Assembly (NCBI GenBank): GCA_011033025.1
Contig: WFMF01000516.1
Location: forward strand, 53,790 to 117,789
Direction: 5' to 3'
Length of the DNA: 64,000 nt
Source of the DNA: Beroe forskalii
Taxonomy: Eukaryota > Ctenophora > Nuda > Beroida > Beroidae
In this document: positions 1 to 61,578 of the stretch, in pieces
Layout: every line of letters starts with the position of its first letter
How positions within the stretch are numbered: position 1 is the stretch's first letter
Position numbers and translations under genes: made by a program
The notes under the pieces: generated by a model
What the model saw: the letters and a program-made list of their open reading frames with translations, nothing else
Told to the model about the DNA's origin: nothing
Database searches by the model: none

Positions 1-146
1 TTATAGTTATTATGGACTGTAGCATATGAACTGTAGAATTTATCTGTTACATTTAAAAGTGGACAGTTCGTTACCTATCCCCCATTTCCTAATTCCTTGC
101 TAACGCAGTGCATCTTGTTAAGACAAAAATGATAATAACTTTGCAG

Positions 147-3100
147 AGACTGGTTCTGGAGATGTAGCAGAGCCAGTAGTCAACTTCCTGAAGTGGTTCT
201 ACCACTTTATCGAGAGGAATGAGATATACCATGTGGAGAACATGTACGAGGATGGCTTCTACAAAATATCTGGTTGGTTAAAATGAGAAGATATGGGAGG
301 ATAATATGCATCTGATGTAGATTATTCTTGACGAATCGCACTGATAAGAATGCTTTTAAAATCATTTATTAAGTTACTAGCAGGCCCGTTGGGCCTGCTA
401 GAATAATATGTAAATGATGGACCTGCTAGAATAATATATAAATGGATACATAGCTCACTCGGCGGCGCTTCGCGCCACCTCGTTCGCAAATTTTGAAAAA
501 AGGAACGGAATATTAAACCTTATGTAGCAATCCAATTATTAACTTAAACGAAATAATGAATTTTATGAAGGAGCAGAGTGCAAAGCAGTTCGGTCAATCT
601 TAGTCGTGCTAAACCATTTGCGTTTTGTTCCGTGTTGATTGCAAGATGATGTTGATTCTGATAACTGATAGTGATTCTCATACTGACTTACTGTCATTGG
701 ACAACTTTGTTTTGATCACATTGATCCAGGCCAGGAATGGTCTTCGTAATCTGCTAATTTATCCGACTCGGTTAAATAGAACTTTTGTAAACCTTAAATT
801 GATCTTTACGGCTAATTTAAAAACTACATTTACGCCGACCGAGCATTTATTATCGGCCGACCTCTACCGCAGTTCTTTTTGAAAACCATCCTCCTTTATT
901 CGAGTTATGTCCATCTTGAGATCTTGAATTTGAAGTAAAAAGAATGTCAAATGTTCAAAAACTGCAGCACAACATTTAACAGTTGTAGCGTAATAGAAAG
1001 CACTCTCAACGAACTGATTATCATCTGCACGTGCGAAAATTGGTTTCCATAGCAACGGCGCCTCATTTCTCCCTTTCGCCTTACTTTCTCTTGATATTTC
1101 CTTGCCCGCACAGACAAACATTATTCACGTGTGAATTTACTTTATTATTAAGATTGTATGAGATAATTATATGACTACTAGCAGGCCCGATGGGCCTGCT
1201 AATACATAGTTCACTCGGCGGCGCTACGTTGGGCCGGCTAGATAATACAGGACCAAATAATAAGCTCTCAAAATTTTTATGAAGGAGCAAAATTTACCAT
1301 TATTCGTTGGTAACTTTTATTAATGCTGGAGCTGGACCCTGCAAGTTTTGATTATTATAATTTGCTCTTGTATGATATAGTTCAATCTGAAAATTTAAAC
1401 CGAGTATCGTATTCATACTGAACGTTGAATTAAAGCATTGATTCACGCCAAAATCGCCAAAATGCTTTTGTTCAATCTTAGATTGCTCTAAATTCACATT
1501 TTTCTGCTACCATCGACCGACGTCTGTCTCAGATTTATGAAGAGATTCTATCAGAAACAGCCTCCACGATGCCAGCCATAAGGTCGTCCTCTGTCTTCAG
1601 ATCTTGAATTTCAAACAAAAACCAGTAAACACGCCGTTCTTTCAAACGTTAAAATGCAGTAGTCAACATCGTATCAGAAAGCACTCGCATAGAACTGATC
1701 ATAAGCTGCACGTGCAAAATACGTGTATCCATAGCAACGGTGCGACTTAACCCAGCTTAGCCTTCGTTTCTCTTGATATTTTCTTGGCAAGCTCAAATTT
1801 AAACTGTGCGCCCGCACAGACAAACATAATTCACGTGCCATCTCCAAATTATATATAAGATCCTGTAATGACCCTGCTCTGAGTTCTACTACAAAGACAA
1901 AATGTGGCCGGCCCCGGAGAAAGTCCAGGAGATTGTGGAAGAAAAGGACGAGGGCTCTATCTTCATGATATTGTACCGAGAACTCTATTACAGACACATA
2001 TACGCGAGACTTAAACCAACCCTAGAGCACAGGTGAGGGGAAATTAACATCATTAGTTCATAACCCCATTGACATGTTGCTATTGAATAAATAATGATTA
2101 TTTTCTACTGGAACATTATTAAATCATTATTTGCTTGGTCAACGATCTGTAATTATTGATTTGGTGATGGTGAAACAATAATGAAATTGAACTTCGACAA
2201 AATCCTGCTCATTGCAAGCCCTGTGGCCAGATGAGATTAGCGATTAATTAATTGGGATAAGTTTTACTCCTCTGACCTTTCCGTTGTAAAAATATTTAAC
2301 TTGTTGTTCAATATTCATTCCAAAGCTCATAACAACCCCAGACTGTTTTCCTAGCATTTGAAGCATTCTTATCGCAAAAGCTGGAAGATATTCTGCAGTA
2401 ATATCTATTTCTTGATCAATCTGGTACCGTACCCCCTTGGTATTAAAAGTAACAGGAACCCTTAACAGCTTCAGGAAAACCCCAGGAGAAATTTCAGGTT
2501 CCCCTCAGGAATCCTCAGGTTAAAATATCACTATTATACCGAGGTGGTAGCAGCAAGCAATCGCCAATTTCTTCATGAAACTTTTGGCTACTCACAAGGC
2601 TGTGCAGCAGTTGGCAAGCAACAAAGCTGCTGGATCAGATGAAATCAGGAGCGTAAGGATTTCTAGATCGCGGAGGTGGATCAGAGATCCAGAGAAAATG
2701 GTTTTTCTCGTTTGCTTTTAAGCTTTTACTGGTATACTCCCTGAATTGGCATAACATATTAGGTTACATTTTACCGAATTCCACTTGACGGCACCCTGAA
2801 ATATTTTCTTTCAGCCAGTGCCGACTATGCGACTCTATTCCTATGGAAATTGTTTTAAGTCACAGGTTATGAACAACTGTCCAGGACAGATTAGCGGAAA
2901 AAGAGAAACTGAATCAACTTTTCTTGAACGCCTGGTACATTTTCAGCTATGAACCATTTAACGTAAATTGGCCACTGGAGCTGGTTTTACTGGAAATTGA
3001 CCATTGAGAGGAACAACCTGTTTATGGATCACTGGTGACCTTCTAAGGTTAATTTGGAAAGTTCTGACATCCCACACAGGATTTATCCTGTGGGGAATAC

Positions 3101-6100
3101 AGAACAAAAGAACAAATGGGTTTGGCCTGAGCGTTGGTCCCTGTCTGCTCTCCGAGTTTGCAGCGCTCCAGGTAGCAACTGACATTAGACTCCCGTGTCT
3201 AGTTGCAGTTCTATGATATAGGTAAGTATGATTATTGTTATATACAGGGAGTCCTTGGGGTCGAGCTAGCAGGAGTTTGCCTCTGGGGACCCGGCGACAG
3301 AGACACAGCACTGATGCTGTGACTAGAAACCGGTGACCGCAAAAGAAGAAGAACCCCAATATCCATATACTCATATAAAATCCTTATTATATCCAGTGAC
3401 TTAATGACAGAAAATCCCTCTTCAGGTTTGACTCGTACAGTAATTACTGTGAGCTGTTCGCCTACCTGCTTGCAGCCGAGGAACCTGTGAAGATAGAGCT
3501 GCCTAACAAGTGGTTGTGGGATATTATTGACGAGTTCGTGTACCAGTTTCAGAGCTTCCAGCAGTTCAAGAGCAAGGTATGGACCCACTTGCCGCCCTCT
3601 CTCATGATTCACTGCTCTCCCATATTAGTATATCATACAACCCTTTCCACTCGTAACTTCATATCTTCATCCGAGTTCAACTCGCTCCTTGCATCCCTCA
3701 CGTTACCCCCGGATACCCATTTGACACCACCCTTCAAAATCTCTGAATTTCCTTTCAGGGCTTTACAAATGTGAAGCTGATTTAATGGCTTCTCTCAGGC
3801 TGGTAAGATAAACGATGAAGAGAAGAACATGTTACGGGACGAGGACCAGGTCTGGAAGGTAACAGCAGTTCTCAACATCCTCATCCAGCTGACGGAGAAG
3901 TGCAACCTCAACGACCAGCTCCAGGCCCTAGAGGAGGGTGAGGTGGTCACTGAGGAGATCGCTGGGGAGTTTGGCATGAAACCCATCTACACCATGACTG
4001 GTATGTGGGAATTTAGAAACCCATGAATCTGCACGTGCATTTTCCCCCATTACGCGCGCGTTACCATGGTGCGTGACGTACAAAAAATACAGAATTTGCG
4101 ACTTTATAAGAGACCAGCAGGCTCGTTGGGCCAGCAAATACACAGCTCATTCGGTGCTGCTACGCAGCACCTCGTTCGCAAATTTCAAACATCACAATTC
4201 AATTTGATTGAATACTTTTTGCCGCATCAAAAAATTCCAATGAGATCAAAAGTTATGTAGCAACTTACTCATACCAACAGAAGTGAACGCGCGCGTTCTT
4301 AATCTGCACGTGCAATTTCCCTCATTGCGCGCGCGTTGCCATGGGGCGTGACGTACAAAAAACATACAGAATTTGCGATTTTACAAGTAAGACTAGCAGG
4401 CCCGTTGGGCCTGCAAATACACAGCTCACTCGGCGCTGCTACGCAGCATCTCGTTCGAAAATTTCAAATCAACTAAATACTTTATACCGCATCAAAAAAT
4501 TCCGACCTCATAAAAAGTTATGAAGCTCCGAAATCAAAAAAGCGTTAAACAGAAATGAACGCGCGCGCAACTATAATCTGCACGTGCATATTTCCCCATT
4601 GCGCGCGCGTTGCCATGGGGCGTGACGTACAAAGAAACACAATCTGCGACTTTATAAGTAAGACTAGCAGGCCCGTTGGGCCTGCAAGTACACAGCTCAC
4701 TCGGCGCTGCTACGCAGCACCTCGTTCGCAAAATTCGACCTTTGCAATTCAAATCAACTCATACTTTTTACCGCATCAAAAAATTCCAATCATGTCAAAA
4801 GTTACAGAGTAACGTACTCATACCAGCTTTAAACAGAAATGAACGCGCGCGCACTTAATCTGCACGTGCAATTTCCCCCATTGCGCGCGCGTTGCCATGG
4901 GGCGTGACGTACAAAGAAACACAATCTGCGAAATTATAAGTAAGACTAGGGGAGTAGGAGAGCTAGCAATTAGTAGTCGCCTTGATGAGCTGAACAAAAG
5001 ATAACAAATGTATCTTGGTGTACTTGAAAGCGTTTTGCTTTAGTGGTAGCCCCCATCATATGGCACATCAAATGAATTATATTTCTAAGTTTCTACCTTC
5101 ATTAAGGACATCGGAGTGGGGTTTTCCCCGCCTTCGTCGGGGTCTGAGTAGTCGATTAGGTCCTGAATTTTCATGTGCTTCATCTCCAGAACACAATTCA
5201 AATCAACTAAATACTTTTTACCGCATCAAATAATTCCAATCAGATCAAAAGATATGGAGCACCGAAATTAAAACAGCATTAACAGAAATGAAAGCGCGCG
5301 AATTTAATCTGCACGTGCATTTTTCCAATTGCACGTGCGTTGCCATGGGGCGTGACGTACGGAAAAACAGAAAATGCAACTTTATATAAGAGAAGACTAG
5401 CAGGCCCGTTGGGCCTGCACATACACAGCTCACTCGGCGCTGCTACGCAGCACCTCGTTCGCAAATTTTCGCAAATTTCAAACCCCACAATTCAAATTGA
5501 CTGAAAAAAATTTACCGCATCAAAAACTCTAATCATACCAAAGAGCATTGAAAAGCAATGACCGTGCGCGCAGTTAATCTGCACGTGCACTTCCCCCATT
5601 ACGCGCGCGTAACCATGTTGCGTGACGTAAAAAGAAACACAATCTGCGATCTTATATAAGAGATAATTTTTATTATTACCCTCCCGTGGCTCAAACTCCA
5701 GTGTGATAATTATCGATATATCACTCCTTTATAGAACTACTGTACAGTGGCGGAATAATAGAGCAGAATATCGTTGAATAAATTGTTGATTTTATGAAGG
5801 AGCACTCAAAATCTATAAAAACGTTGAATTCAGACGAGGGTCGTCAGACCCGAGAGGGAGGGAGTACTGTTTTGTCGGGTAATAATACAATTAACAAACT
5901 CATGGATCGTGTGATATCGAAAATTGTCAAACTCGGCTGACGCCTCGTGTGATAATTTTCGATATCACACTCCCATTCGTTTATTAATCGTACAGTATTA
6001 ATTGGTCGCAAGTAGGGTATGAACCCCAGAATCCAATCTATATGACATTTCTCAAGAGGATCATCACAATATCATGCTATTACAATGTAAGTATGAAGAT

Positions 6101-9100
6101 TTCCTAGGATTTGCTTTTGTTAATAACAGAACCTTTTTTGATGCTGCCGTAGTTAATAAATCTAACAATTAGTTTATCGTTTAAGAATAAATTATAAAAA
6201 ATTTCTTCGATAAAACATTCGTACGACAATTGTAGACTAATAGTGAAACCATTGCGAAGAGTCTCGAAGCAATTGAATGAAATGAATGTGCGGTATTTTA
6301 AACGCAAGGAAATATCTTTTGCGCAGCTTTTTATTGCTATAATATTCTCTGAGGTCCAGTCTGGTCTCACTGCATCACGAATAAATCTTTCGCCTTTTAC
6401 TAAAGATTTCCGTGCAGTGGGGCAACGTTACAGACATTTATATTTTTCTGTAGTCCTCTGTAGAGGGCACCCAATGAACGAGTGATATGATAGTGGAATT
6501 GTGAGTATCTGGCTAATTGTGTCACTTACTACCTGTTGACCGTTGCTGTCATGTAACACTGTAATATGACACGGAGAGCGACCTTCATAGATTTTAATTG
6601 GTCTGATCAATGTGTTACATTAACAAATGAAGAACCTTTTATTCTTTATAGAGCTAGCTATTTGCGCTAAGTTTGAAGAGTTGCTAATGCTCTCATAATC
6701 ACCAGACATTTGACGCCTGTTCCCACTCAGGTTTCTTCAGTTTGGTGGGGCTACTACGTCTCTACTGCTTGCTGGGCGACTATCACATGGCCCTGTCCTG
6801 CATCGAGAATGTCCAGTTTAAGGATAAAGACATGATGGCTCTAGTACCTGCATGTCAGATTACAGCTAACTACTACGCAGGCTTTGCCTACTTCATGATA
6901 AGGAAATACGCAAATACCATTCAGTTGTGAGTGTAGCTATTTTGTAGTTCATTAGCTCCTCTAGAAAATTCCAGAGTTTTACTTGTACTTTATGCGTTTC
7001 GTTTCGTTTCGTTTTAAACCCACGGTGGGGTACCCATAAGGGCTTTGAAATAAATATATAATCATGCTTTTTCACTGCCCTTTTAGTCATCGTGTATACT
7101 CTTCAAATGTTTCTAAGAGTAATTGAGTAGATTTGTCGATTCTTAGGATATCATAGACTGCTCGTCAGGTACCAACATATTCTGGGTTACATGCAGCGGA
7201 CCAAACAGTTCTTCCAGAACCGCTCCTTCCAAGTTGAGGACATCAACAAGAAGAACGATCAGATGCTAGCACTACTCGCTATTGCCAGCACCTTCTGTCC
7301 ACTGAGACTCGACGAGAGTGTCAATATTCAGGTACCATGTGATGTTGTCTGGCCTCTGTTATCAGTTAAGATGTAACACACCTCTGGATTTGTAACATAT
7401 TCCCTACCCTAACACAGGACCTTTGGACCATATCTCACTTGTAAAACTCCTTAGATCAAGGAAAAGCAGGGAGACAAGGTAGCTCGCATCCAACACGGCG
7501 ACATTACAGTGTACGATGACCTCTTCTTTAGTGGCTGTCCTAAGTTCCTCTCTCCTGTGGTCTCAGAAAACCCCACGTCTCCCTTCGGGAGCAGGTAACA
7601 AGTTACTGTGCAGGCCCTGAACTGGAGTTCTATTGATTGATTATAATCTGCGTATATTTGTATATTTGAAATTGGCGCGTTGCTCGGTTGATCCGTCGCC
7701 TGTCACGTGATAACCTTTGAGTGCAGTACCGGGTAGACCATTAGGACGGTTGGATGTGGCATTGGCAACTTCAGATAAAACCGTTTGATTAGTCTATTTG
7801 GCTTCGTGCTCGAGGGAGGTCGCTTGGGGGGCGGTGGATTGACCAAGCGATGCTACTTTCAAATTCGCAAAATTTTAGGTAAATTTCTTGAAATTTTAAT
7901 ATAACCGAGTCCAATGTTTTACAGTGGACCCAGAGGCATGCAGTTGCAAGTTTTCAAGGCTGAAGTGGAGCAACAACGACTGATCCCGACCCTCCGAAGC
8001 TTCCTGAAGCTCTACACTTCCATCCCTATTTCAAAGCTAGCCAAGTTCCTGGACATGCACGAGAACGAAGTGAGGTGCTGTCTCATGGCCTTCAAGCACA
8101 AGAAGGAAATTGTAAGTTGTAGGTATTTTATCCTTGGTTGATGGTTGCCTATTTTGGCGGTATGCTTTTCGGCCCGTCACTCACTTTTTGATGGTTTACG
8201 GACGCGGCGGTGTCATAAACTCAATGCTTTTCACGCGCGTTCTTGTGCGCTCTTTTATGGAAATTAGGAATTTGAATTGCGTAAATTTATTTTACATTAA
8301 AATGTCGCGTCGGGCCGTAAGAAACGTTCAGATCTTTCAAATACAGATATACATGCAGTTGGCCATTTGGGAGTAGTGGGTAAATTGACAAGGTCCAGTC
8401 AATTGATGTATTGAATGTGTAAACGCCGCATTCGTCACGCCTGATTTGATGTTGAGTGGTGTCAACGTCATTGAGTTGGTATGTGGAATATGCATACGTC
8501 GCTGTTCGTCATAGATGACGGAGTGGTGTCAGCAATCATATATAAGGACGTGTGCTGCACTTCTTGCCATTAGTTCGATTCGTTTTCTTGGTGTTCAGTT
8601 GTCTTGCTAAATGCGTTGTTAATAAGGTACCGTTGTTGGTAAGGTACCGTTGTTGATAAGGTACCGTGGTTGTTAATGTTCCGTGGTTGTTAATGTTCCG
8701 TGGTTGTTAAGGTACCGTTGTTGTTAAGGTACCGCTGTTGTTAAGGTACCGTTGTTGTTAAGGTACCGTTGTTGTTAAGGTACCGTTGTTGTTAAGGTAC
8801 CGTTGTTGTTAAGGTACCGTTGTTGTTAAGGTACCGTTGTTGTTAAGGTACCGCTGTTGTTGAGGTACCGTTGTTGTTGCACCACAGTTGTTGTTAAGGT
8901 ACCGCTGTTGTTAATGCACAGTTGTTGTTAAGGTACCGTTGATGTTAGAGTAACGTTGTTGTTAAGGTACCGTTGATGTTAGGGTAACGTTGTTGTCAAG
9001 GTACCTTGCTAGGGACCGTTGCCGTTATTGGTCGCCAGATTAAGGATCTTATGCTCTTGCCATTCATACTTAATAAATTGCACCAAAATACCCAAATCCG

Positions 9101-12100
9101 GTCTGATATGATGATCGTGTAACAAAGGTGTCTGAAATTTCCATAAAGCTGCCATTTGTACCTGCGTGATACTGATGATTTGACATCTCTGTAATATAAT
9201 GACGTTCAAGAGAAATTAACAATGCATAAGGCAAGTCATAAAAGGTTCAATTGACCCCAATTAACTGGCCTTTTTTTTGACCGGCCCCTTTTTAACCGGC
9301 ATTTTTAAACCGGCCCTTTGGAATCTCAGTCATTTGTTCTTAAGGGCCGGTTAATTAAATAAAGGCCAATAAGGTATATTGGTTTGGAACGATGATCGTT
9401 TAAAAAAAACGATTACGCATATGTTATGTGTGCAGACCGCTCGATTGACAGAGGTCTCGATAAATAGGCGCGGATTTCCTCTGCGCCATTTCCTCGGCCA
9501 TTTCAGACCCCTCCCTCCCCCTTGTCCGCAATCCACTGCTTACCTTCCAAAAGTGGGTAGCAGGAGTAGTACTGCTACCGAGGGGATTTTTTTCAAAACC
9601 AAGGGGATTTTCAAGTCAAGATGCACGCACGCGCAGCGTGCGTGCCATGCCGAAATCACAAATAAAAAATTGATAAAAATTATATTTATTTGCAACTAAT
9701 GTGTTCAAATAACAACGTAAATCAATTTTAACTGTAAAGATGCATATGTTCCAGGGGAATACAAACATACAAAAGGATGTGAGGCGAAGTAATCATGAGG
9801 TGAGGGGAAGCCGGTAGCTGAGGGCAATTAAGTAATTAAGATGAGGGGAAGTAAGGTGAGGGTAATTAAGTAATTACTACAGTAAGGGGATGTATGGTGA
9901 GGGGATGTATGGTGAGGGGAAGTATGGTGAGGGGAAGTATGGCGAGGGGAATTAACTAACTGAGGTGAGGGGAAATATGGTGAGGGTAATTAAGGTGATT
10001 CGTGATGAGATGTAAGGTGAGGGAAAGTGAGGTGAGGGAAAAGCGATGTATGCCACACAAGAGGAAAATACTGACCATTGTAAACTTTTGTAATAGTTCG
10101 ATGATAAATAATCGATAGAAAACGCCTTTGGCAAGAAAGGATTGTTAATCAAATTAAACATTACCAGATTGATCTCAGAGGCATACTCAGGCACAAAACC
10201 TGAAAAATTTTCGCCTGCGGCGGGCTGTTGTGATTCAATAATGTCACTAATTTGATTCTGCACACAATCTCAGATGTAATACTTTCACAATTTTTGCCTA
10301 CGGCTGGCTGTTTTAATCACATTATACATTAACCAGATTGATGTTCGAGGCAGATTCAGGTGCAAAACCTTAAAAATTTTCGCCTGCGGCGGGCTGTTCT
10401 GATCAAATTTTGCCACTTCATTGATCCTGAAACTATCTCAGATGTAAAACTTTCACGATTCTTGCCTATGGCTGGGCCCTGTTTTAATCACATTATACAT
10501 TAACCAAATTGATCTTAGAGACAGATTCACACATAAAAACCTTAAAAATTTTCGCCTGCGGCGGGCTGTTGTGATCCAATTATGTCACTAAATTGATCCT
10601 AGACACAATCTAAGGTATAAAACCTTCACAATTTTTGCCTACGGCTGGCTGTTTTATCACATTATACATTAAACAGATTGATGTTCGAGGCAGATTCAGG
10701 TGGAAAACCTTAGAAATTTTCGCCTGCGGCGGGCTGTTCTGATCAAATTTTGCCACTTCATTGATCCTGAAACTATCTCAGATGTAAAACTTTCACGATT
10801 CTTGCCTATGGCTGGGCCCTGTTTTAATCACATTAAACATTAACCAAATTGATCTTAGAGACAGATTCACACATAAAAACCTTAAAAATTTTCGCCTGCG
10901 GCGGGCTGTTGTGATCCAATTATGTCACTAAATTGATCCTAGACACAATCTAAGGTATAAAACCTTCACAATTTTTGCCTACGGCTGGCTGTTTTATCAC
11001 ATTATACATTAACCAGATTGATGTTCGAGGCAGATTCAGGTGGAAAACCTTAAAAATTTTCGCCTGCGGCGGGCTGTTCTGATCGAATTTTGCCATTTCA
11101 TTGATCCTAGACGCAATCTAAGGCATAAAACCTTCACAATTTTTGCCTACAGCTGGTTGTTTTAATCACATTATACATTGAGGGGGCAGGGGGGGGTCTT
11201 CGGGGTGACGATGGCCAAAATGGAGTTTTTGGCTAGAAATGATAGAGGAGCATCGTAGCTACCAGAAAAACTTTACGGAATGAAAAAATCTTGTTCCTAG
11301 CCTGAGTTATGCGATTTTGAAAATCGGAATTTGCCTGTAATTACAGTACGCGCGCAAAATTCAATCGCGATTTGCCGAAAATGATCTTAAAAATCTATCT
11401 CCTCCTACATTTTTGGAGAATCATCCTGAAACTTTCCAGATATGTTCCAGGGATTAAAATGTCTAAAATGAAGAGATTTGTTTAGTAGATTTTTGATTTA
11501 GGCCTTCAAACCGAAAATATTCCATTTTGAAATTTCGAACCTGCCAAAAATCATCAAAATTTGGCACCTCAAAATTTTAAAATCGAATATTTTCGGTTCT
11601 GAGGCCTAAATCAAAAATCTACTAAACAAATCCCTTCATTTTAATCCCTGGAACATATCTGAAAGTTTTCAGATGATTCTCAAAAATGTAGGAGAGATAG
11701 ATTTTTAAGATCATTTTCGCAAATCGCGATTGAATTTCGCGCGCGTACTGTAATTACAGGCAAATTTTCAAAATCGCAACTCAGGCTAGGAACAAGATTT
11801 TTTCATTCTGCAAAGTTTTCTGGTAGCCGATGCTCTCTACATCATTTCTAGCCAAAACTCCATTTAACCATATCGTCACCTGAAGACCCCCGCCCCCTTA
11901 ACTAAATTGATCTAAGAGGCAGATTCATGTGCAAAACCTTGAAAATTTTCGCCTGCGGCGGGCTGTACTTAATGGTCACTTAATTGGCTCTTGGCTCCGA
12001 GCAAGCTTGAAACCGAGGGGATTTTGATATCTGCTACCGAGGGGATTTTCCTTTTTGGAAGGTAAGCAATCCAGAAACCCCTCCCTCCCCCCGGACGTCC

Positions 12101-12823
12101 GCATTTTTCTTGAAAATTTTTTGGGTCACCATTTTTGGCCCCGAATTTCCATGATTTTCCAGTGAAATAGCTCAAGCTGTCAAATCGCCCGAAATTTCAA
12201 TGAATCGCGGACGTACGCATTTGGCCAAACACCCCCTCCCCCTACGTCCGCAAACATCCGCTTTGGCCAGACTCCCCCCTCCTCCCTCATTGTGGATGTC
12301 CTTTATGGATGGCACCTAATATCGAGGCCTTTTTCAATCGAGCGGTCTGCACACATTGATACATGGGTTATCGCGAGACAATCGTTTCTAAAAACGATTT
12401 AAAAAAATCGATTTTCGTTTTTTAAAACGATTATCGTTTTTCAACTTCAAGACGATTATCGCGCGATAATCGATTTATCGCTCATTCTTGTCAGAGCGAT
12501 TGGGAATTTATGTAATAATCGTTTTGTGCAATTCTAAAATCCAGAGATTTTCCACCGTGTTTACGTTTACGTTCTACGAGATCTTTTCTACGACGCAAGT
12601 CGGCTAAAACACAATTTTTCAGGCGAAGGGGGACGGTGGCGAGCAAACCACCCTCGACATAGACTTCTATGTGGACAAGAACATGATCCACATATCCGAC
12701 ACGAAGATAGCCAGACACTACGGTGACTACTATGTCCAGCAAGTCATCAAACTGAGGGACTCCAACAAACTTATAATGAGTGCTGCCCTGAACCCCGTGG
12801 CTGCCGGCCCAACGCCCCCGTAG
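147..12823 (+). CDS. EIF3L: Eukaryotic translation initiation factor 3 subunit L, left copy (5' partial)
   Basis: eIF3L is a PCI-domain subunit of the eIF3 complex, which organises the 43S pre-initiation complex in the cytoplasm. Exons read on the plus strand: 147-272, 1884-2032, 3426-3576, 3799-4000, 6731-6926, 7169-7331, 7455-7594, 7925-8111 and 12623-12823 (stop TAG at 12821). Recognisable blocks are [18 protein letters not shown] in the fourth gene exon, [51 protein letters not shown] and [21 protein letters not shown]; all match the order of vertebrate eIF3L. Exon 1 (start codon) would lie left of the window; its equivalent in the right copy is at 28299-28347. No stop or frameshift was seen in the exons. 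The second intron's acceptor does not fit GT-AG and frame together (see findings). Introns hold arm-specific insertions. Confidence 0.9.
374..1858. repeat. Left-arm-only insertion: two tandem copies of a dispersed repeat with GGCCCGTTGGGCC hairpin
   Basis: The right-arm intron runs straight through this site, so about 1.5 kb was inserted into eIF3L intron 2 on the left only. It consists of two related units starting near 374 and 1176. Each opens with CTAGCAGGCCCGTTGGGCCT or a variant, followed by CTCACTCGGCGG. Each later carries an ATCTGCACGTGC-type block and ends with AT-rich sequence containing TTCACGTG. Related copies occur at about 4110-5480, 23162-23870, 50672-50770 and 60885-61010. No protein is encoded; short ORFs here are not convincing. 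Probably a nonautonomous mobile element; class uncertain. Confidence 0.7.
2341..3351. mobile_element. 1.0 kb left-arm-only insertion flanked by a 7-bp direct repeat
   Basis: eIF3L intron 3 is 1393 bp here and 360 bp in the right arm. The extra block is bounded by AACCCCA at 2334-2340 and again at 3352-3358. The right arm has this sequence once, in the order ACAACCCCAATAT. That is the pattern of an insertion with a target-site duplication. I see no terminal inverted repeat, no poly(A) and no coding sequence, so the element type is unknown. Confidence 0.6.
4020..5660. repeat. Intronic satellite of about 270-bp units carrying CACGTG and TGACGTAC motifs
   Basis: Six units lie in the left copy's eIF3L intron 5. 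Each starts at ATCTGCACGTGCA; starts are near 4027, 4302, 4576, 4858, 5307 and 5577. The spacing is 270-282 bp except for one 449-bp gap holding an unrelated block (about 4945-5175). Each unit carries GCACGTGC (E-box core), a run of GCGCGC, CCATGGGGCGTGACGTAC (half-CRE-like TGACGTAC) and, in most units, the GCAGGCCCGTTGGGCCTGC hairpin followed by CTCACTCGGCGCTGCTACGC. The right arm lacks the array. The short ORFs read through it are spurious. Confidence 0.85.
5661..6730. other. Remainder of left eIF3L intron 5
   Basis: AT-rich intron. From 5690 to 5975 it contains two direct copies of a GTGTGATAATTNTCGATAT motif about 245 bp apart, within a left-arm insertion. From about 6005 it is collinear with the right arm (about 22595-24050), apart from the right-arm insertion at about 23162-23870. 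No exon recognised. Confidence 0.5.
8620..9005 (+). repeat. 17-bp minisatellite with KpnI-like core GGTACC (left arm)
   Basis: Tandem copies of a unit reading GGTACCGTTGTTGTTAA with point variants, within the last eIF3L intron. The mirror array in the right arm (about 20308-20745) is on the opposite strand, longer, and has a distinct sub-variant with an added G (GGGTACC). The same satellite existed before duplication and changed copy number independently. Confidence 0.9.
10180..11175. repeat. Tandem array rich in CGCCTGCGGCGGGCTGTT
   Basis: The higher-order unit is about 330 bp. It alternates sub-blocks ending in TTCGCCTGCGGCGGGCTGTT and in TTGCCTACGGCTGGCTGTT, separated by AT-rich spacers such as CACATTATACATTAACCA. 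At least three higher-order copies are present. One further CGCCTGCGGCGGGCTG block follows the nested foldback at about 11950. Noncoding, inside the 9537-12068 element. Confidence 0.8.
11179..11896. mobile_element. Foldback (palindromic) MITE nested in the tandem array
   Basis: The two halves are inverted copies. The left starts GGGGGGTCTTCGGGGTGACG and the right ends CGTCACCTGAAGACCCCCGC. Both carry inverse copies of blocks such as CTGTAATTACAGTACGCGCG and AGATTTTTGATTTAGGCCTT. It interrupts an array unit between CATT and AAC, where other units read CATTAAC. A related half-element is at about 63016-63560. No ORF. Likely a nonautonomous DNA transposon. Confidence 0.8.
12357..12485. repeat. 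Nested CGATTATCG palindrome cluster (left arm)
   Basis: A 130-bp stretch built from overlapping palindromes of A, T, C and G such as CGATTATCGCGCGATAATCG and AAACGATTT, just before the last eIF3L exon. It is mirrored at about 19320-19435 in the right arm. It could be a hairpin-rich repeat terminus. No function is evident from sequence. Confidence 0.6.
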
Positions 12824-16040: not shown

Positions 16041-16281
16041 GCACCTAATCATGACCCCCACACCAGGCTACGACCCCGAAGCACCTAATCATGACCCCAC
16101 TCCAGGCTACAACTCCGAAGCACCTAATCATGACCCCCCCCCCTCCAGGCTACAACCCCGAAGCACCTAATCATGACCCCAACTCCAGGCTACAACCCCG
16201 AAGCACCTAATCATGACCCCCACTCCAGGCTACGACCCCGAAGCACCTAATCATGACCCCCACTCCAGGCTACAACCCCGA
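16041..16281 (+). repeat. 40-bp minisatellite whose unit spans the following exon's splice acceptor
   Basis: Six tandem units of about 39-44 bp read GCACCTAATCATGACCCC, then CACTCCAG, then GCTACAACCCCGAA. The last unit runs directly into the WASP-like exon, which begins GCTACAACCCCGAAG after CACTCCAG (acceptor AG at 16267-16268). Each unit therefore carries a copy of the acceptor plus the first exon bases. The unit length is not a multiple of three, so the array is not itself a coding repeat. Confidence 0.85.
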
Positions 16282-28347: not shown

Positions 28348-28349
28348 AT

Positions 28350-41030: not shown

Positions 41031-41039
41031 GGCTTACTG

Positions 41040-48496: not shown

Positions 48497-49335
48497 ATAA
48501 TAATAATAAATAAATAAAGAAATTAGAACATTTATTACACGCTTAGACATTGTCAAATAGATATCTAGGAGGGAACTACTCTAGCCATTTAAGCGTGACT
48601 AAAACTAAACTCAAAGGCTCAGATAGCAAAAGTGTTTCATGTCAAAAATGTGCCCAAGGAAAATTTCATCTAATATAGAATATTACAAAATATATAATAC
48701 CCACCATACCTAACTTTAATCTAATCAATTCCCGAAAATGCATCTTCAAAATAATATGTCTTCAAGGATTTCTTAAAATTATCAATTTCTCCAATACTTC
48801 TTATTTCATAAGGTAAACTATTCCAAACTTGTGGACCATAATATTGAAAAGCACCTTCTGTTCTTTTCAAGTTAACAGGACTAGACGTTTTTAGTATAAA
48901 GAAATCATCGTCTAACCTCAAACTCATCCTTTTAGTATCTCTTAATGATATCAAATTCTTCAAATAAATAGGAGCTAAATTATTGATGCACTTATATACT
49001 AACAAAGCAACTTTAAATTTTATTCTATAAATTACTGGCAAAAAGTGTAGTTTTTTAAGGAAAGGACTTATGGACTGCCACTTTTTCTTTCCATTCAACC
49101 TAAAAATAAATCGCACAGCATTGTTCTGGATTTTTTGAAGTCTTTGCAGGTTTTTATCTGTTATGCCTGCATAACTTGAATTACAATAGTCCAATACTGA
49201 CAAAATGTTAGCATGTACTAACTGAACCTTTAATTCATGGCTGAGTCTAGATCCAATCTTTTTGATGTTCCTCAAATTCAAATAACAAATCTGGGAAAGA
49301 TGACTAACTTGATCATCCATACTGAGTCTACCCAC
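48497..49335 (-). mobile_element. 5'-truncated LINE, reverse transcriptase C-terminal part
   Basis: The 204-codon minus-strand frame (49335-48721) carries the region after the RT domain of CR1/Jockey/RTE-like non-LTR elements: ILSVLDYCNSSYAGI, LQKIQNNAVRFIF, KKLHFLPVIYRIKFK, INNLAPIYLKNLI, and VWNSLPYEIRSIGEIDNFKK near the end. The palm with the catalytic Asp residues is absent, so the element is dead. The 3' UTR runs to an (ATT)n-type tail at 48498-48520 (plus-strand AATAATAATAAATAAATAAA). The truncated 5' edge coincides with the start of inverted duplication 2 at 49336. Confidence 0.85.
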
Positions 49336-49497
49336 CCTCCCCTGCTAATCAAGTTTACAGAAGTTTCTCAATGACTTGCACTGATATAATCTAATGCACT
49401 GATGATGAATTGATTATGGCTATTCATTTTGCAGAACTTAGCAACTACATTTTATATCTCATTCTTATATTTGCAGCAAGGTAATTGAAGGTTCAAG

Positions 49498-52400
49498 ATG
49501 GCACCTGTAGTCGAGGGTGAGTCATTGTGTTATGAACAGGCTGCCTTATGAAATCAGATGTATACCTAATATTGACAATTTCAAAGTTGCATTGAAAACT
49601 TATTTTTATCGCTGTGCATTTGATGTTCAATAAGATACTATGATGAGACATTTTTGACCTTAAGCTCCTTTTTTTAAGTTTTAGGATACTTATCAAGACT
49701 GTTTATGAATGTTATTAAGTAGGCTTCCGCTTTGTTACTTAGAGCTTGCTCAATCATGGTTTAGCGGAATATAAGTTCATTATTATTATTATTATTATTA
49801 TTGACTGTTGAGTGCACTGTACATTATGCTATTTCATTGAACGAAAAATTTGTAAAAAGAAGCTAAAAAGAAGCACCTATTCTCCTCCTCTGCCCCTTTA
49901 AGTACTCTCTTCTCACCAGACACTGACCCTCATGACCTAACCCGTTAAAACCTAATCTTCCTGTCATCCTGTCTCACTCTTTAAACTCTCTAACCGTTAA
50001 ACGCCTTATCCTTCTTACCTCTTTAAAACACTCATCCTAATTTCGTTCCTCTCATTACTATTAACCTAAACCTTGACGTAATTTCTCCACTCTTTCTCTT
50101 CTCACAATGCTCTTATCATAATTAACTCAGTCTCCATTTCCCAGTCATCCGCTCTTATCTTAATTCCCTTACTGCCTGTTAAAACTACGCTCTCTGCTCG
50201 TGACCTGACCATGCTCCTCTCCCGTACGACCTGTGAACTGCCACTACCACATTCCCGTTCCCCTGACATCATCCTACCCATTCCCCCTTACTCTGTTACT
50301 AGCGCTCTCAATCTCATGCCCTCTCCAATCTATCCAATTTCACCTATTAACACATCTTCCCCCAAAAATCTGATATTTTATTGTGACAAATTTTATTGAC
50401 ATTTCTGTTTTATTGAAATGTTGTTTTATAATCAAATGCCAAAAACTACCTAAAGATCACTTGCAATCACATGTTTTTGTTTATACCTTAAATTCCCTGA
50501 ATGGCTATTTTGCAATTTGATCAATGAAATGAGGTTATTTATTTTAGGTGCTGATCAGCCATTCTCGAACCCTATTGCTCCTGCAAATCTGAGCATTGAT
50601 GAAGAAGCTGATAATGATAACTTGGTCACCACGTAAGTTGGCTCTAGTTTAGCATATAATAATATAATATGTCAAGCAGGCCTGTTGGGCCTGCTAATAC
50701 ACAGCTCACTCGGCACTTCTATGCAGAACCTTGTTAGCAAATTTAAAATCCTACAATTCAAATTAACTAAATACCTCCAAGTTTTGATTCAGGAGCGTGC
50801 CCACCCCCCTCCCCCAGCACGCTCCCGTGGACCCATGCCTGGCCCCAACATTAATGGCTTGGTCTCGGACCACTTACATACCTTCAAATACACCATTTTT
50901 CCAGGGCCAACCTTACCAATGCTGACTTCCGGAAAATGCTTATGACACCCGCTCCAAAGCAAGCCAAAGCAAAGGCACAAGTAACCATTGCCAATGTAGA
51001 GAAAGAAAAGCAGAAGGAGCGTGAAAAACGGCTAAAGGAGAAAAAGGTATCAGTTCATTGACAGAGGCCATGCAAATATTACCTAATATTTGCAATATAA
51101 TCAATTTTGTGGCTTTCCTTTTGTAATCATGTGGTGTTCTATCATTTTACAGTAACTCATTGTAATCTCAATGACTAATTTATACTCCTAGTACCCACTT
51201 ACCTATGTAAGTGTGAACAATTGCAATCCCACGTTGATTATTGATCTTTTGTAATTTTTGTCATAGATTTCGGTTTCGATGTGGATTGTGCATCCCCAAA
51301 CCCCAATTTTAGTTGAAAGTTGATTAAGGAGGAAGTAGGTACATAGATACATGCACAACATTAAAACTTCAATAGCTATCCCACTTCACAGTGCTCGTGA
51401 CCAATAATATTGTTTTATATATACACTATTATAGGTATTGTAATTTGTATAACTATACCTATAACTCTGTATGTAACTCTATAAGACTGAATAGTCAACA
51501 CTCAACAGTCTTGGTGTGAACATTTCATCATTAGTATTCCATATTATTTTCAGCATTAAAAGTCCTTAAACCTCGCAGAAAAAGAAGAGTGAGTACTTAG
51601 AATACAAGAAGACGACAGAAGCTCGACAGAAGGAACTAGCTGAACGATATCGGGATCGTGCAGATGAAAGACGTCAGGAACAAAAAAATTACGAGATTGC
51701 AAATCTCGAAAGCCAAGCCAATCAGTATGCTCCAGCTGGATCAAGTATTGCTTCTGTTGCAGACAGACGAAAACAAACAATTCAAGAGTCTAAGTTTCTT
51801 GGTGGTGACATGGAGCATACTCATTTAGTGAAAGGGCTGGACTTTGCACTGCTTCAAAAAATGAGGGAGGAAATGGCTAGAACTGATCAGTCAGAAGGTA
51901 AAATCCAAAAGACTGAAGCCCATTTAAAAACCGAGGAGGCGAAAAATGCTGAAGAGGGTATGAACTTCAAGACGAAGATGGCCCAGTCAGTATATCGGAT
52001 CCTGTTCGTTAATAAGTATCCAGAAAGGAACGAACTGTTTTCTCAAAACAGGATGGCTTATCAAGTTGACATGGATGATGAATATGCAGAAACCGATGTC
52101 CCAACTACACTTATCAGAAGTAAAGCTGATGCAAAGGCCAGTGTTGAGAAGCGAACTCTAACAAATAACGACATTGTCATCAACAAGCTGACTCAAATCC
52201 TGTCTTACCTCCGGCAAGGTAACCGATATGGAAAACAGAAATTCAAGAAGAAAGAAAAGAGGAAGTTTGAAACCAAAGCTCCGGCAGTACCTGCTACAGC
52301 TGCTGAAGAAGACATCTTCAGTGGAATTGGGGAGTACGTTGCTCCGGGCGTTAAGGCTGCAGCTGCTGGCAGCAAGAAAATGGAGAAACCCAGCACCTAC

Positions 52401-53320
52401 TTCAATGAAGTCACTGAGAAAAGCAGGGCTGAGGCTGAGGCTAAGGTGGAGGCTGCGAATCAGAAAAGGGCAGCAGACGCTCGAAGGATGCGGTTAGATG
52501 CTCAGCAGCCTCAGGACAGCTACATGGAGTGTTACCCTGGAGCTATGGAGGAGAGTGGGAATGCTTATGATTCAGACGAGGATGCAGACTACAGTAAGAT
52601 GGATATGGTTAGTACGTATTTCTTTCTGATTGTGCCGTCGTGGGCATAATTTTTCTACCTAATTTTATTGATTTTTAATGGGATTAAAAAGTACAAGCTG
52701 ACATACTGACATGTTCTCTAAATCTGTTATCTCTACATGTGGTTTGAATTGTTTTAGCAAATGATTGCTCAAATGGCGAATCTTTATTCCACTTTGCTGT
52801 ACTGGTCAGTGAGTGCCTCTATATCACTTTGCTCATAATCAAAAGACTTAAAGAGAATAAAGGATTTATCATATAGAATTAATATCTATCGCTTGTTGAC
52901 TGCAGGGAAACAAGAAAGGTCCACTAACACGGTGGGACTTTGAAGACGAAGATAAGTACAACAATTACATGGAAAAGAAGGAGGCAATGCCAAAAGCTGC
53001 CTTCCAGTTCGGAATCAAGATGAGTGATGGGAGGTTAGAGAGAAAGTATTATTGATGAATTTGGTGTTAACTACATTATACACTTATACACGATTTATTC
53101 TCTTTCAACTATTTCTTGATTGATAATCTGATAATGTTCTTTAAATAATCCAGATTTCATAAATTCAATGTGTTGTTTCAGGAAAACAAAGAGACACAAG
53201 CCAGTCGATGAGAAACAGAAGCTCGATCGTGAAATGCAAAGGATAAACGCCCTGATAAACAAACGAAAAGCTGTCGGTTCTGGAGAAGTCGAGATTCCGG
53301 AAAAGGTCGCCAAGTACTGA
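49498..53320 (+). CDS. IK: IK/RED spliceosomal protein, intact left copy
   Basis: Exons 49498-49516, 50548-50632, 50905-51046, 51579-52607, 52906-53033 and 53182-53320 sum to 1542 bases: 513 residues, in frame, all with GT-AG introns. IK/RED is a nuclear component of the spliceosomal B complex, needed for pre-mRNA splicing and mitotic spindle checkpoint function. Diagnostic blocks in order: ADQPFSNPIAPA, ESKFLGGDMEHTHLVKGLDF (RED N-terminal domain), YRILFVNKYPERNELF, DEYAETDVPTTLIRSKAD, NKLTQILSYLRQGNRYGK, DEDADYSKMDM, NKKGPLTRWDFEDEDKYNNY and KAAFQFGIKMSDGR. The Arg-Glu/Asp dipeptide tract that gives human RED its name is missing; an Ala/Glu/Lys-rich linker takes its place. Start chosen at MAPVVEG because the right copy keeps the same short first exon. 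Confidence 0.93.
49532..49803 (+). mobile_element. LINE 3' fragment inserted in IK intron 1 (left arm only)
   Basis: Encodes the last residues of a LINE ORF, NRLPYEIRCIPNIDNFKVAL and CAFDVQ stop, closely parallel to the end of the 48721-49335 ORF but on the opposite strand. It is followed by a short 3' UTR and a (TTA)n tail ending at 49803. The right arm has an uninterrupted GTTATGACTGTTGAG sequence at this position. Confidence 0.85.
49852..50392. mobile_element. Unclassified 0.54 kb pyrimidine-rich insertion (left arm only)
   Basis: The right arm joins its flanks directly (GAACGAAAAATTTG to TTTTATTGAAAT). The block is rich in CTCTCTAACC and CCTAACCCGTTAAA-like words. No terminal repeat or ORF was seen. 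Confidence 0.55.
50672..50770 (+). repeat. GGCCTGTTGGGCC dispersed repeat in IK intron 2, present in both arms
   Basis: A short member of the family found in eIF3L introns: CAAGCAGGCCTGTTGGGCCT, then CAGCTCACTCGGC and a degraded GCAGAACCTTGTTAGCAAAT. The inverse copy at about 60905-61010 shows it predates the duplication. Confidence 0.75.
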
Positions 53321-54163
53321 GAAATGACTCACTTAGGAGTCTGCGTTTTGTGAGTTTCGTGGCTGCCTTATACCAGCTATTCTTCAGCACTTTGAACGGT
53401 AATGGTCATTGATCCTGAGCGATGTAAGAAGAAGGAGAAAGAAAATCATAATGTTACTGTACTGTGTAGAGACTCTGAGACTGCTGAGTCACGCCGAATA
53501 TCTCACTTGAAGATTGTGTTTTTGGCCAACAGAAAGAAAGTGTCAGCTTCACTTTCCCCGAGTTTCACTGTACATTATAATGCTACAAAATACGTTCATT
53601 ACTCCAAATCGTGCTCTAATAAGTTACTTATTCAGTACCTATATATCTAATGCAATGATTGATGATATATAGGTATTTATTTCTGTTCTGTGAGAATTGA
53701 TGACAAAGTGATAGTTTGACTTTCACTTTATTAGTACATCAAAATACGAGATTCCGTAAAATTCTTATCTATTCCATTTGCAATTTTCTCCATGTATAAT
53801 TTAGTACTGTACAGTTTTCATCCCATACCAGTGAATATGAGAGTTTGAACTTGTAAGTAGAAACGAGCTGCAGAAATGGGTAAATGTAAGAAGTGTTTTT
53901 CTTAATTATTTTTTGATTCAAGTGCTGTATTATTTTACTAAATTCTGTAACTGAGTGAATAAGACGAACAGCTGTTTCATTCAAAACTTTAAGCGTTCAC
54001 TCTTTATCGAAATACGTTGTGCAGACAGACAGGCTCATATTTGATTAAATAGGCAAATATTTACATATTAATTATTTTCATACCATATTCATATAGTTTT
54101 TACTGAATTATTACCTCTTCTAAACTCAACCCATGCGTCTGTTAAACTCAATGCAACCGACAA

Positions 54164-54228
54164 CATTTTGATTGCAATCCCCCTCGCACAGCATGATATT
54201 GCGACCTAATGTCACTGGTGCCTGACCA
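54164..54228. other. Short region between IK arm and REV3L start
   Basis: Only 65 bp separate the palindrome inner edge from the REV3L ATG, so the REV3L 5' UTR and promoter would lie inside the duplicated arm, 0.9 kb after the IK stop. Confidence 0.4.
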
Positions 54229-55445
54229 ATGGATGGATGTGTCTACGTGCAGAGGTGTGTCTCAGTGGATGATTACCTGGGAGCCCCCATCCCGCCTCTA
54301 GATGAAACTGTCTGTCCTCTCTCAGGATCTATCATAAGGAAGGTAATGACGAAGTGATATAACCAGTGGTATCCGTGCGACACAAATTCATTTGGTTGAA
54401 GCGGTGTTGTGGTCTCTCGTTTTGATAATATTATTTTGACAATTGCTATGTGAAATTTTCCGTAATCTCTAGAATTTGTTTAGATAGAATTAAGCTTTTA
54501 AATGGGGTTGGTTTGTCAATAAAATATACAAATTTGCAAATTGTGGTTTTTATGTTCTTCGTGGTAACATCGTTAGCATGAAAGTGTATCCCAATTCCCA
54601 GGTCCCTATTCTGCGAGTTTACGGAGCGACACAGCTCGGACAGAAGGCCTGTATCCACGTTCACCGGGTGTTTCCCTACTTGATGGTCCCCTACAGAGAC
54701 ATTGCAGGGCAAGTTGGTAAATTATAAATCCTTTAATCTTGATTACTGACACTGCAATTCTGTTACTTATCAATTAAATGACAAAGTCGCAACCGGCAAC
54801 CACTCATTTGTTTGAAATATATTATTTCAATTTCATTAAATACATAACATTTGTCATTTCAATTTTAAGAGTTGGTTTCATTTATGAAATTGTTGCTTGA
54901 AATGAACAGTTAGTATAAACCGTTCTCGCAGACGCCGACTTCAGAGACATCTTCACTGAGCTCGAGAGTTCGCTTAATCGGAGCTACGGATCCTCCAACG
55001 GCCAGTTCATCCATAACATCGTCACAAAGACTGGCATTCCATTCTATGGCTTCCACGAAGATGAGATAGAGTTTCTCAAGATCCTTTTCTACCAGCCAAG
55101 ATACGTTAAGCGAACTGCAGAGCTCCTTCTTCAAGGCTGTTTGAGGTAAGAAATTAGTCATGATTTGCATAATTCTGCTAGCGAAAATGTTGAAATTCTT
55201 AGGTATTATTACAATTGAGCTTGATTATAAAGTATTCTATATAAATACTTCATTTCAAATAAAGTATTCTCAGAGGTAAGCTGGTGCAGCCTCATGAAGC
55301 CCACATCCCGTATTCTCTGCAGTTCCTGACAGACTACAACATCCACGGAATGAACCTGATATACTTCCGGAGGGTCCTTTTCAGAGTGTCAGAGGATCAG
55401 TTCAACCAGCTGACTATCAACGAGAATACCGATTACATGTCATCT
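54229..55445 (+). CDS. REV3L: DNA polymerase zeta catalytic subunit REV3, N-terminal four exons only
   Basis: Exons 54229-54342, 54602-54716, 54932-55145 and 55274-55445 splice in frame with GT-AG sites to 205 codons without a stop. Matches to the REV3L N-terminal domain: KVPILRVYGATQLGQKACIH, FPYLMVPYRD, TKTGIPFYGFHEDEIEFLKI, VKRTAELLLQG, VQPHEAHIPYSLQFLTDYNI and HGMNLIYFRRVLFR. REV3 is a B-family translesion polymerase of about 3000 residues in vertebrates. None of its exonuclease-like or polymerase motifs is here. After the last donor (GTGAGT at 55446) no further exon is found before the inverted arm starts at about 56742. So the gene is cut off, either by rearrangement or by a misjoin. 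The reading frame itself shows no decay. Confidence 0.88.
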
Positions 55446-56741
55446 GTGAGTAGCTTTATCATTCTGGTCCCTAACCCACTCGCCGGGGTATGGGTCATGT
55501 TTTGTATTTTATTTTAAACCTCATGCTCATGGGGCATTGTGATTCGGATGGACAAGAATTTGGCGGATTTAATTCTGGAATACCTTCTATCTATATAATA
55601 ATTATACAACTTTTAAGATAAGACTAGGATAGCAAATATTATCACAGTTTCACTTTCAGCATAGTATATTAAGCTGTTAAGATTTTTCAAATAAGCAGGC
55701 ATTGAATGGATGAAAAGCTATCTTTATCAACGGTATCATACTTCAACTGATGACCGAACTAAATAATTGTTCTCACATAATATTGAATTAAACTTGAAAT
55801 TAAACTCGACGCATTTGAATATTGCCAGTTTGGTCAAGTAAGTTGTAACCCAAAACTTTTAACTTACCTAGGGCAGAAACTGGATATTGAAACTTCCAGT
55901 TTATGCGGGTTCATGAAAGCATGAAGTGTGGTGGTGAAACCCGGCCCCATCTACTGACTTTTTCGGTTGCTGCCCAGTGCCCCAGGTCAAATTTGATTCA
56001 TTTGACCATTCCGACATTATTACCTACTACCTATAGCTTAATAATAGAGGTTACTGTGAACTGTATAAAAAGACATTAAATACAAGTTCAGGGAATACAA
56101 TCTACTTGAAAGTGCTCGACTTATTGAATGAGATTTAGCGATGCTGAAGATTGGTCTAAAAGCCATGAAACATATTGTTCATCCATAACGTGTTGTTTCA
56201 CTTTGTTAAAAAGACATAATATATATACTTTTCTTTGTCTTTTTCCCCATCACTCGGAGTACTGTCATTTCTTGTCGGCGTTTTAGAATCATTTCAGACT
56301 CATTGTTATGCATATTTCCGAGTATTTAAATCACCCATATAAGAGTATAAAGACAGGAGTATTCTATGTTTTCGTAACTAGGCCGCAGATCTGCCCGTTC
56401 TTTCTACAAGTTATGAACTCCGAGTTTCAGGATTGGTTTCCTCCATTCTGTTTGTTGTTTCCTGTTGGAATATATCTTGGGGTTGTTTTTATTAATGTAC
56501 GCACATCACAATTGATTTATTTATAGGTAGGTTTTTTTGGTGTGGAGTTGGAGTAATAAGCACCATTTGCCACTTCAAACTTATCTAAGTCATCTAGGTA
56601 ACTAGGTAACTAGAATATTAACATATTACAAGGATCAAGGTTTGAGTGAGAAAGAGGAATAATTCAAGCCGTATACTAACATTTCCATTGGCCGGTGTGA
56701 TCCTCTCACCACAAGCCTCCTCCACTTCGTGAGCTGATTCA
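55446..56741. other. Rest of palindrome 2 spacer, no gene seen
   Basis: AT-rich and single copy in the window. It should be REV3L intron if the gene were intact, but no exon with REV3L similarity was recognised. A 72-codon frame at 56308-56526 is hydrophobic but unsupported. Confidence 0.5.
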
Positions 56742-57209
56742 TCCGGTTGCATTGAGTTTAACAGACGCATGGGTTGAGTTTAGAAGAGGTAATAATTCAG
56801 TAAAATTGTATGAATATTGTATGAAAATGATTAATAAGTTAATACTTGCCTATTTAATCAAATATGAGCTTGTCTGTCTGCACTACGTATTTCGATAAAG
56901 AGTGAACGCTTAAAGTTTTGAATGAAACAGCTGTTCGTCTTATTCACTCAGTCACAGAATGTAGTAAAATAATACAGCACTTGAATCAAAAATAAGCAAA
57001 ACACTTAAATTTCCCCATTTCTGCAGCTCGTTTCGACTTACAGTTCAAACTCTCATATTCACTCCAGTATGGGATGAAAACTGAGCAGCTTACTACAGTA
57101 TACATGGAAAAAAGAATTTCCGGAATCTCGTATTTTGATGTACTAATAAAGTAAAAGTCAAACTATCACCCAATTCTCACAATTTAGAGAATCGGAAATA
57201 AATTATATA

Positions 57210-58011
57210 ACGGGTGATGACTAATTATCTGGAATCATTTCAATGCATTCCTGTGGGCAAATCGAGATCATGTTAGAGCTCAAATATGATTATTCTGGAC
57301 CAAAAAAGTCTGCCGATGCAGAATAACATCATGAGAAAATCCGAAAACCCTGTTTTCCCATGCTACGTTCCGATACAAAAAAATCTTGCACAAAAAAATC
57401 TTGAACAAAATCTCAATGACAATAATTTTCTCCAAAAGTGTTATTTAAGCCTTACTATGGGGTGATTCTGAGCAAGAGTGACTGCAGTAAGTAGCATCAC
57501 TAACTTATCCAGTGGTGACCCTATGGAACCTAAAACGTGTTTAAAATCGTCAATTCTAGGATAATGTCACTTTAATAAAACTGTGATTTTGGGTAATTGT
57601 TAATCCAAAATTCTGCAATAAATGGAAGTGGTCCAAAGACATGAGTTATGTTTAATGAAGTCCCTGCCATCAAATCTGAGTGTTCAAACCACCTAAGTCC
57701 TGTTGTAAGACTTTCTTAAGGCCTGGTGTTCATGAATAAACCTAGATGGCAACTAATGGGAATGCTCTTGTATGCAATTTTCCAATCATATGTCAGGAAG
57801 TCAATCTTTGAATTTGTGCAAGATTTTTTTGTACCTTCTCAAACTAATCGGCCAGTAGCATGGGAAAACAGGGTTTTCAAACTTTTTCATGATGTTATTC
57901 TGAATCAGCAGACTGTTTAAGTCCAGAACAAGCACATCTGAGCTCCAACATGATCTCGATTTGCCCACAAGAATACAATGAAACAATTCCAGATAAATAG
58001 TCATCACCCGT
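57210..58011. mobile_element. 802-bp foldback MITE flanked by TA (mariner-like), right arm only
   Basis: Ends ACGGGTGATGACTA and TAGTCATCACCCGT, with TA immediately outside both. Long inverted arms share TGGGCAAATCGAGATCATGT and AAAACCCTGTTTTCCCATGC (inverse GCATGGGAAAACAGGG). The left arm lacks it (about 53650). The 64-codon and 68-codon frames inside are on opposite strands of the same arm and are not convincing. TA flanks suggest Tc1/mariner, by inference only. Confidence 0.8.
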
Positions 58012-60904: not shown

Positions 60905-61010
60905 GTATTTAGTTAATTTGAATTGTAGGATTTTAAATTTGCTAACAAGGTGCTGCATAGAAGTGCCAAGTGAGCTGTGTATTAGCAGGCCCAACAGGCC
61001 TGCTTGACAT
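60905..61010 (-). repeat. GGCCTGTTGGGCC dispersed repeat, right-arm copy
   Basis: Inverse equivalent of 50672-50770 in IK intron 2. Confidence 0.75.
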
Positions 61011-61578
61011 ATTATATTATATGCTAAACTAGAGCCAACTTACGTTGTGACCAAGTTATCATTATCAGCTTCTTCATCAATGCTCAGATTTGCAGGAGCA
61101 ATAGGGTTCGAGAATGGCTGATCAGCACCTAAAATAAATAATTTTGTATTTTGATCCATTGACCATTTATACATCAATAACAAATAAATAACCTCATTTC
61201 ATTGATTGCAAAATAGCCATTCAGGGAATTTAAGGTATAAACAAAAACATGTGATTGCAAGTGATCTTTAGGTAGTTTTTGGCATTTGATTATAAAACAA
61301 CATTTCAATAAAACAGAAATTTCAATAAAACAAATTTTTCGTTCAATGAAATAGCATAATGCACAGTGCACTCAACAGTCATAACACAATGACTCACCCT
61401 CGACTACAGGTGCCATCTTGAACCTTCAATTACCTTGCTGCAAATATAAGAATGAGATATAAAATGTAGTTGCTAAGTTCTGCAAAATGAATAGCCATAA
61501 TCAATTCATCATCAGTGCATTAGATTATATCAGTGCAAGTCATTGAGAAACTTCTGTAAACTTGATTAGCAGGGGAGG

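Follow-up and report, generated by a model that had tools for sequence, protein, structure and literature searches.

Two genes of Beroe forskalii, eIF3L and IK/RED, are each present as an inverted pair of copies on one contig, C599, and at slightly better than even strength we favour allelic false duplication with chimeric joins, rather than genuine inverted duplication, as the origin of both pairs. The two inverted copies would then be the two alleles of each gene in a strongly heterozygous diploid. The assembler would have kept a 5-15 kb piece of the second haplotype and joined it, inverted, beside the first, the joins running through short stretches that carry the ends of other genes (WASP, REV3L and a GPCR). 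If the copies are alleles, the gene counts and gene order taken from the assembly are wrong here for eIF3L, IK, U5, WASP and REV3L, and silent divergence between the haplotypes is very high, at about 5-10%. If the palindromes are instead real, housekeeping genes would here have undergone paired fold-back duplication in the germline, a clear case in which the spacers still show the genes that were sacrificed. The two leading readings are each of a known kind.

Two inverted gene pairs on one contig

The window is the whole stretch of DNA analysed, 64,000 nucleotides, and forms the right-hand 64 kb of the gapless contig C599 (117,789 bases, 0 N); positions refer to the window unless the contig is named. 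The assembly searched comprises 216 Mb in 1,134 contigs. Self-comparison of the contig reveals two inverted gene pairs, almost exactly where an earlier note on the same DNA had placed them, and the longest inverted blocks, of 1,629 bp at 94.1% and 1,198 bp at 96.6% identity (E = 0), lie far beyond chance. One protein-coding gene was found per arm, together with U5 in palindrome 1, and there are no collinear multi-gene blocks. The gene assignments proposed earlier (eIF3L, IK/RED, the REV3L 5' exons and a WASP-like C-terminal exon) were borne out, the last by a weak match. Palindrome 1 and its neighbour display the following features:

1..14967, plus strand: left arm of palindrome 1, starting 723 bases before the window (contig 53067-68756); eIF3L with large introns
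6358..6469, plus strand: U5 snRNA of the left arm, inside an eIF3L intron (86.2 bits)
14968..16456: spacer 1, with a dispersed repeat (15769-15903), a 40-bp minisatellite (16040-16283) and a WASP-type C-terminal exon
16257..16427, plus strand: frame of the WASP-type C-terminal (central/acidic) exon; weak match to the WASL C-terminus (E 0.018, 37 residues)
16457..28874, minus strand (contig 70246-82663): right arm of palindrome 1; second eIF3L copy, inverted, with the same located exons
22880..22991, minus strand: U5 snRNA of the right arm, inside an eIF3L intron (87.3 bits)
29301..33200, minus strand: Timeless, one long open reading frame of 1,299 residues, separated from the right arm by about 430 bp

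The arms of palindrome 1 measure 15.7 and 12.4 kb and enclose a spacer of 1,489 bp. The identity of eIF3L is given by a Paf67 domain in a left-arm open reading frame. The located exons form the same set in the same order in both arms, and exons for the N-terminal ~100 residues were located in neither. A 17-bp minisatellite of about 23-24 units occurs in both arms (8614-9005 and 20315-20736) and is thus probably older than their split. Outside the arms, the two flanks (contig 1-53066 and 82664-103119, that is 53 kb on the left and 20 kb on the right) have in common only one dispersed element of ~480 bp and three matches of 51-100 bp. The left arm adjoins this roughly 480-bp element, for which at least 46 genomic matches were obtained, including the two on C599, with the best 40 of 275 candidates scored. 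A simple fold of one haplotype into the other at palindrome 1 is ruled out, because a plain fold would continue outward and these flanks do not.

Palindrome 2 lies near the right end of the contig and contains the following features:

49331..54159, plus strand: left arm of palindrome 2; IK/RED with the frame of its long exon intact, first exon (MAPVVEG) read by eye
54160..56743: spacer 2, with REV3L exons 1-4, dispersed-repeat pieces and a GPCR 3' end
54229..55450, plus strand: exons 1-4 of REV3L (DNA polymerase zeta), E 4.3e-17, exon limits set by eye
56311..56743, minus strand: 3' end of a GPCR gene of the LDLa type, with 83% identity to a gene on contig C667
56744..61583, minus strand: right arm of palindrome 2; inverted second copy of IK, whose long exon carries nine frameshifting indels
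57210..58011: 802-bp insertion confined to the right IK arm, the left arm having the empty site; terminal inverted repeats of ~200 bp and an apparent TA target duplication

Both arms of palindrome 2 are 4.8 kb long and the spacer between them is 2,584 bp; by eye, the first exon of IK sits in the outermost 205-bp block of each arm. The contig ends 2.4 kb beyond the right arm. A reverse-transcriptase-like open frame, recognized by eye at 48721-49344, ends near the outer edge of the left IK arm, and a Pfam search of this frame gave no hit.

Divergence and coding constraint between the arms

The arms of each palindrome are separate DNA lineages, because they differ by ~5% substitutions and carry arm-specific insertions. 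Palindrome 1 shows 426 differences in 8,365 aligned bases (5.1%), summed over 11 of 16 alignment blocks, with four alternative alignments of the 17-bp array and one secondary match left out. The corresponding figure for palindrome 2 is 160 of 3,350 (4.8%) in four stretches; a value of 8.7% mismatches from whole-arm alignment was dropped, as that alignment forces unrelated inserted sequence together. Larger differences between arms are insertions or deletions, most clearly the 802-bp element, which confirms the arm-specific transposon insertion of the earlier note. The outermost blocks are closer than the inner parts, with 11/818 and 3/276 bases differing in palindrome 1 and 99.5% identity over 205 bases in palindrome 2. 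This likeness (0.5-1.3% substitutions) is predicted by neither the allelic nor the duplication reading.

Within the coding regions the differences are strongly biased towards silent sites. The eIF3L arms carry 27 synonymous and 0 nonsynonymous differences across 450 codons (8 exon cores), where about 53 nonsynonymous changes would be expected, by simple arithmetic, had one copy been free since duplication. The IK arms carry 13 synonymous and 4 nonsynonymous differences across 442 codons (4 exon segments, 13 gap-holding codons set aside), two of the latter lying beside indels. By these coding differences, eIF3L and IK each look constrained in both copies, which is what alleles would show.

Exactly two copies of each gene were found. 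A DNA search of the whole assembly with the IK region (51475-54159) matched the two arms alone, and the eIF3L query (6188-8480) revealed, among the best 40 of 410 candidates, no third copy, the matches beyond the two arms being repeats of at most 172 bp. The allele-like divergence and the lack of further copies in these searches do not by themselves separate the readings, since constrained paralogues would look the same. One full copy of Timeless was found in the assembly; the lack of a second suggests that the assembly is haploid-like here, and it is thus probably not simply diploid and unpurged. A decayed piece of Timeless is present in the genome. Beside the full copy, at about 34654-34916, lie two short pieces of its 5' end (83% and 81%), by a 93% direct repeat of the Timeless upstream region. 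Timeless and the right-arm eIF3L stand in series on one strand (28874-33200), with an operon-like spacing of ~430 bp from the arm edge to the Timeless frame.

A cluster of frameshifts in the right IK copy

The long exon of the right IK copy contains nine indels, each shifting the frame (1, 2 or 7 bases), in a span of 485 bp. The cluster corresponds to the stretch matching 51741-52226, and the remainder of the exon contains zero indels. The ratio of indels to substitutions in this exon is 0.32, against 0.14-0.15 in three non-coding stretches, while the indel density of 8.8 per kb falls inside the non-coding range of 5.6-13.3 per kb. We interpret these indels as errors in an unpolished stretch of sequence, because a gene inactive for the time needed to collect nine frameshifts ought to have collected many amino-acid changes as well. 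In the assemblies described in the consulted part of PMC10236652, the final versions were re-polished so that allelic regions present twice were not left unpolished.

Gene ends in the spacers

The earlier note held that spacer 1 contains only a WASP-like exon and spacer 2 only REV3L exons. Both statements were too narrow: spacer 1 also holds the dispersed repeat and the 40-bp minisatellite, and spacer 2 also holds dispersed-repeat pieces and the GPCR 3' end.

A query covering 15000-16400 of spacer 1 has its full match here alone, with only a dispersed repeat found elsewhere. A protein search of the assembly gave no second WASP-type C-terminal exon, with one candidate in all, a search in which a distant paralogue could be missed. 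Domains of the WASP body lie on contig C333, where WH1, PBD and two WH2 matches (the second below the curated cut-off) follow in order on one strand over 16 kb, the WH2 matches ending at 202,610; among 4 WH1 and 3 PBD matches, this is the only contig with both. If the spacer 1 exon is the end of the C333 WASP gene, that gene is split across two contigs. A nested insertion, with an eIF3L copy in the last intron of an intact WASP gene, was rejected since WH1, PBD and WH2 sit together on C333 and an approximate human N-WASP query gave one chance-level match on C599 (E 3.3).

Spacer 2 (query 54160-56743) likewise has its full match here alone; elsewhere it matches dispersed repeats, a fragment of REV3L and the end of a GPCR gene. 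The GPCR piece comprises the last codons and the 3' region, and the counterpart on C667 continues upstream with 7tm and LDLa domains. The C667 match ends at 56743, at the start of the right arm, so that the GPCR coding sequence is interrupted by the arm. Continuation of REV3L on C667 is not supported, as the matching piece there is the end of the GPCR gene. Elsewhere only a fragment of REV3L was found (C1047:264855-268271), with exon 2 and part of exon 3, broken inside exon 3 and about 78% identical to spacer 2, the intervening intron included.

Origin of the inverted pairs

In favour of the allelic reading, both copies look constrained, frameshifts cluster in the right IK exon, the WASP exon is apparently detached from its gene, spacer 2 holds truncated genes and the contig ends 2.4 kb from palindrome 2. 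The joining of two divergent haplotypes, which the earlier note had offered as one of two mechanisms, thus gains from the allele-like coding divergence, the IK frameshifts and the WASP exon, and fails in its simple form at palindrome 1. There the palindrome stops on both sides, so that the allelic reading needs further false joins. Two inverted joins on one contig are also a lot to accept, the implied silent divergence between haplotypes would be very high, and the indel density of the right IK exon lies in the non-coding range, as in a decaying gene. Heterotype false duplications, as the consulted parts of PMC9516828 and PMC10548655 describe them, share with C599 the allele-like divergence and the finding of exactly two copies; in 7-24% of cases the two copies share a scaffold (PMC9516828), and a gene can wrongly be given exons of another. 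In contrast, the C599 pairs are inverted and without gaps, and gaps between the pair are, in the portion of PMC9516828 used here, a mark of false duplications on one scaffold. The gapless contig therefore counts against the allelic reading and agrees with genuine inverted duplication by fold-back repair, a substantial possibility that we hold to be less probable than allelic joining. Fold-back would begin with a break in or near the last WASP intron and another in or beyond REV3L intron 4. The ends would fold back and the neighbouring gene (eIF3L or IK) be copied in reverse, the loop being left as a single-copy spacer; the remainder of the broken gene would be lost and other sequence would cap the end. 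The arm-spacer-arm geometry fits this course, since the single-copy spacers of 1,489 and 2,584 bp fall inside the range of about 0.8-70 kb; in human inverted duplications a spacer was present at 21/21 sequenced junctions (766-70,466 bp, median 3,428; PMC3907307, as excerpted). Fold-back also predicts that genes are cut short at the spacers and that the outer flanks are unrelated, as seen here. Older broken gene copies, namely the C1047 REV3L fragment and the decayed Timeless piece, exist in the genome, and newly arisen duplicates of C. elegans often lie side by side in inverted orientation (PMC2728529, in its consulted part). Against fold-back stand the allele-like constraint in both copies of both genes and, if the event is fixed, the only detected WASP C-terminal exon left detached from the WASP body. 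In addition, the spacer edges display no clear inverted match: the longest in four tests are 5-8 bp, lengths reached by 199, 34, 13 and 83 of 200 shuffles, for present-day sequence from which the pre-break sequence may differ. The inverted duplication proposed in the earlier note is consequently compatible in its geometry, while its hairpin-prone sequences are unsupported, the matches at the spacer edges being not clearly longer than in shuffles. The fuller version, in which both palindromes are real and mark a rearrangement-prone chromosome, with breaks in neighbouring genes healed by fold-back, two housekeeping genes copied in reverse, the broken genes lost and both copies fully constrained, is somewhat doubtful and less probable again.

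A real heterozygous structural variant, with inverted copies on one haplotype, the simple order on the other and the rearranged path kept by the assembly, would explain why the contig has no gaps and how genes could be broken with no function lost. It is nevertheless improbable, since an intact allele should have yielded a second WASP exon or a second spacer 1 (15000-16400) beyond the dispersed repeat, and as far as the assembly was searched neither is there. Least probable by far is a fold-back artefact at the level of reads, in which one molecule is read forward and back through a missed adapter or is made palindromic by whole-genome amplification. Palindromic reads are documented (PMC12870357 and PMC6218980, as excerpted), but the arms differ by ~5% substitutions, with mostly synonymous changes in exons, and one arm carries an insertion where the other has the empty site, which one molecule cannot give. 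This is decisive, and the synonymous-biased substitutions and the arm-specific insertion uphold the same exclusion in the earlier note.

Comparison with known palindromes

The following likenesses and differences hold for the published systems as described in the parts of the reports consulted. The human fold-back inverted duplications with disomic spacers (PMC3907307) share with C599 the inverted arms, a spacer (here 1.5-2.6 kb) and genes truncated there; in contrast, the C599 arms, at 5-16 kb, are far smaller and the inverted matches at the spacer edges are not clearly beyond chance. Young gene duplicates of C. elegans (PMC2728529) share the adjacent inverted copies. Newborn duplicates there are often structurally unequal, whereas the C599 copies have a silent divergence of about 5-10% and are both constrained. 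The palindromes of Adineta vaga, Folsomia candida and Meloidogyne (PMC7953838, PMC5490193, PMC5465968) likewise place inverted homologous blocks on one scaffold, but as multi-gene collinear blocks, against one protein-coding gene found per arm on C599. Misassembly is given as one origin of false palindromes in PMC7953838, a survey of genomes of parthenogenetic animals that counts misassemblies among its own palindromes, and a tunicate study judged large palindromes real after checks of depth and structural error (PMC12448946).

Other features of the contig

The contig contains further repeats. A direct tandem duplication of about 4 kb, with blocks 77-89% identical, occupies contig 33660-46521, and its left copy is split by an element of 2.9 kb whose terminal inverted repeats are ~0.8 kb long and which is related to another pair at contig 25172-28064. 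Inside the contig, tracts of degenerate TTAGGG and CCTAAC face each other (36580-36673 and 36952-37043). In the left part of the contig, a near-perfect palindrome of 225 bp (99.6% self-inverted) lies at L013:5329-5553.
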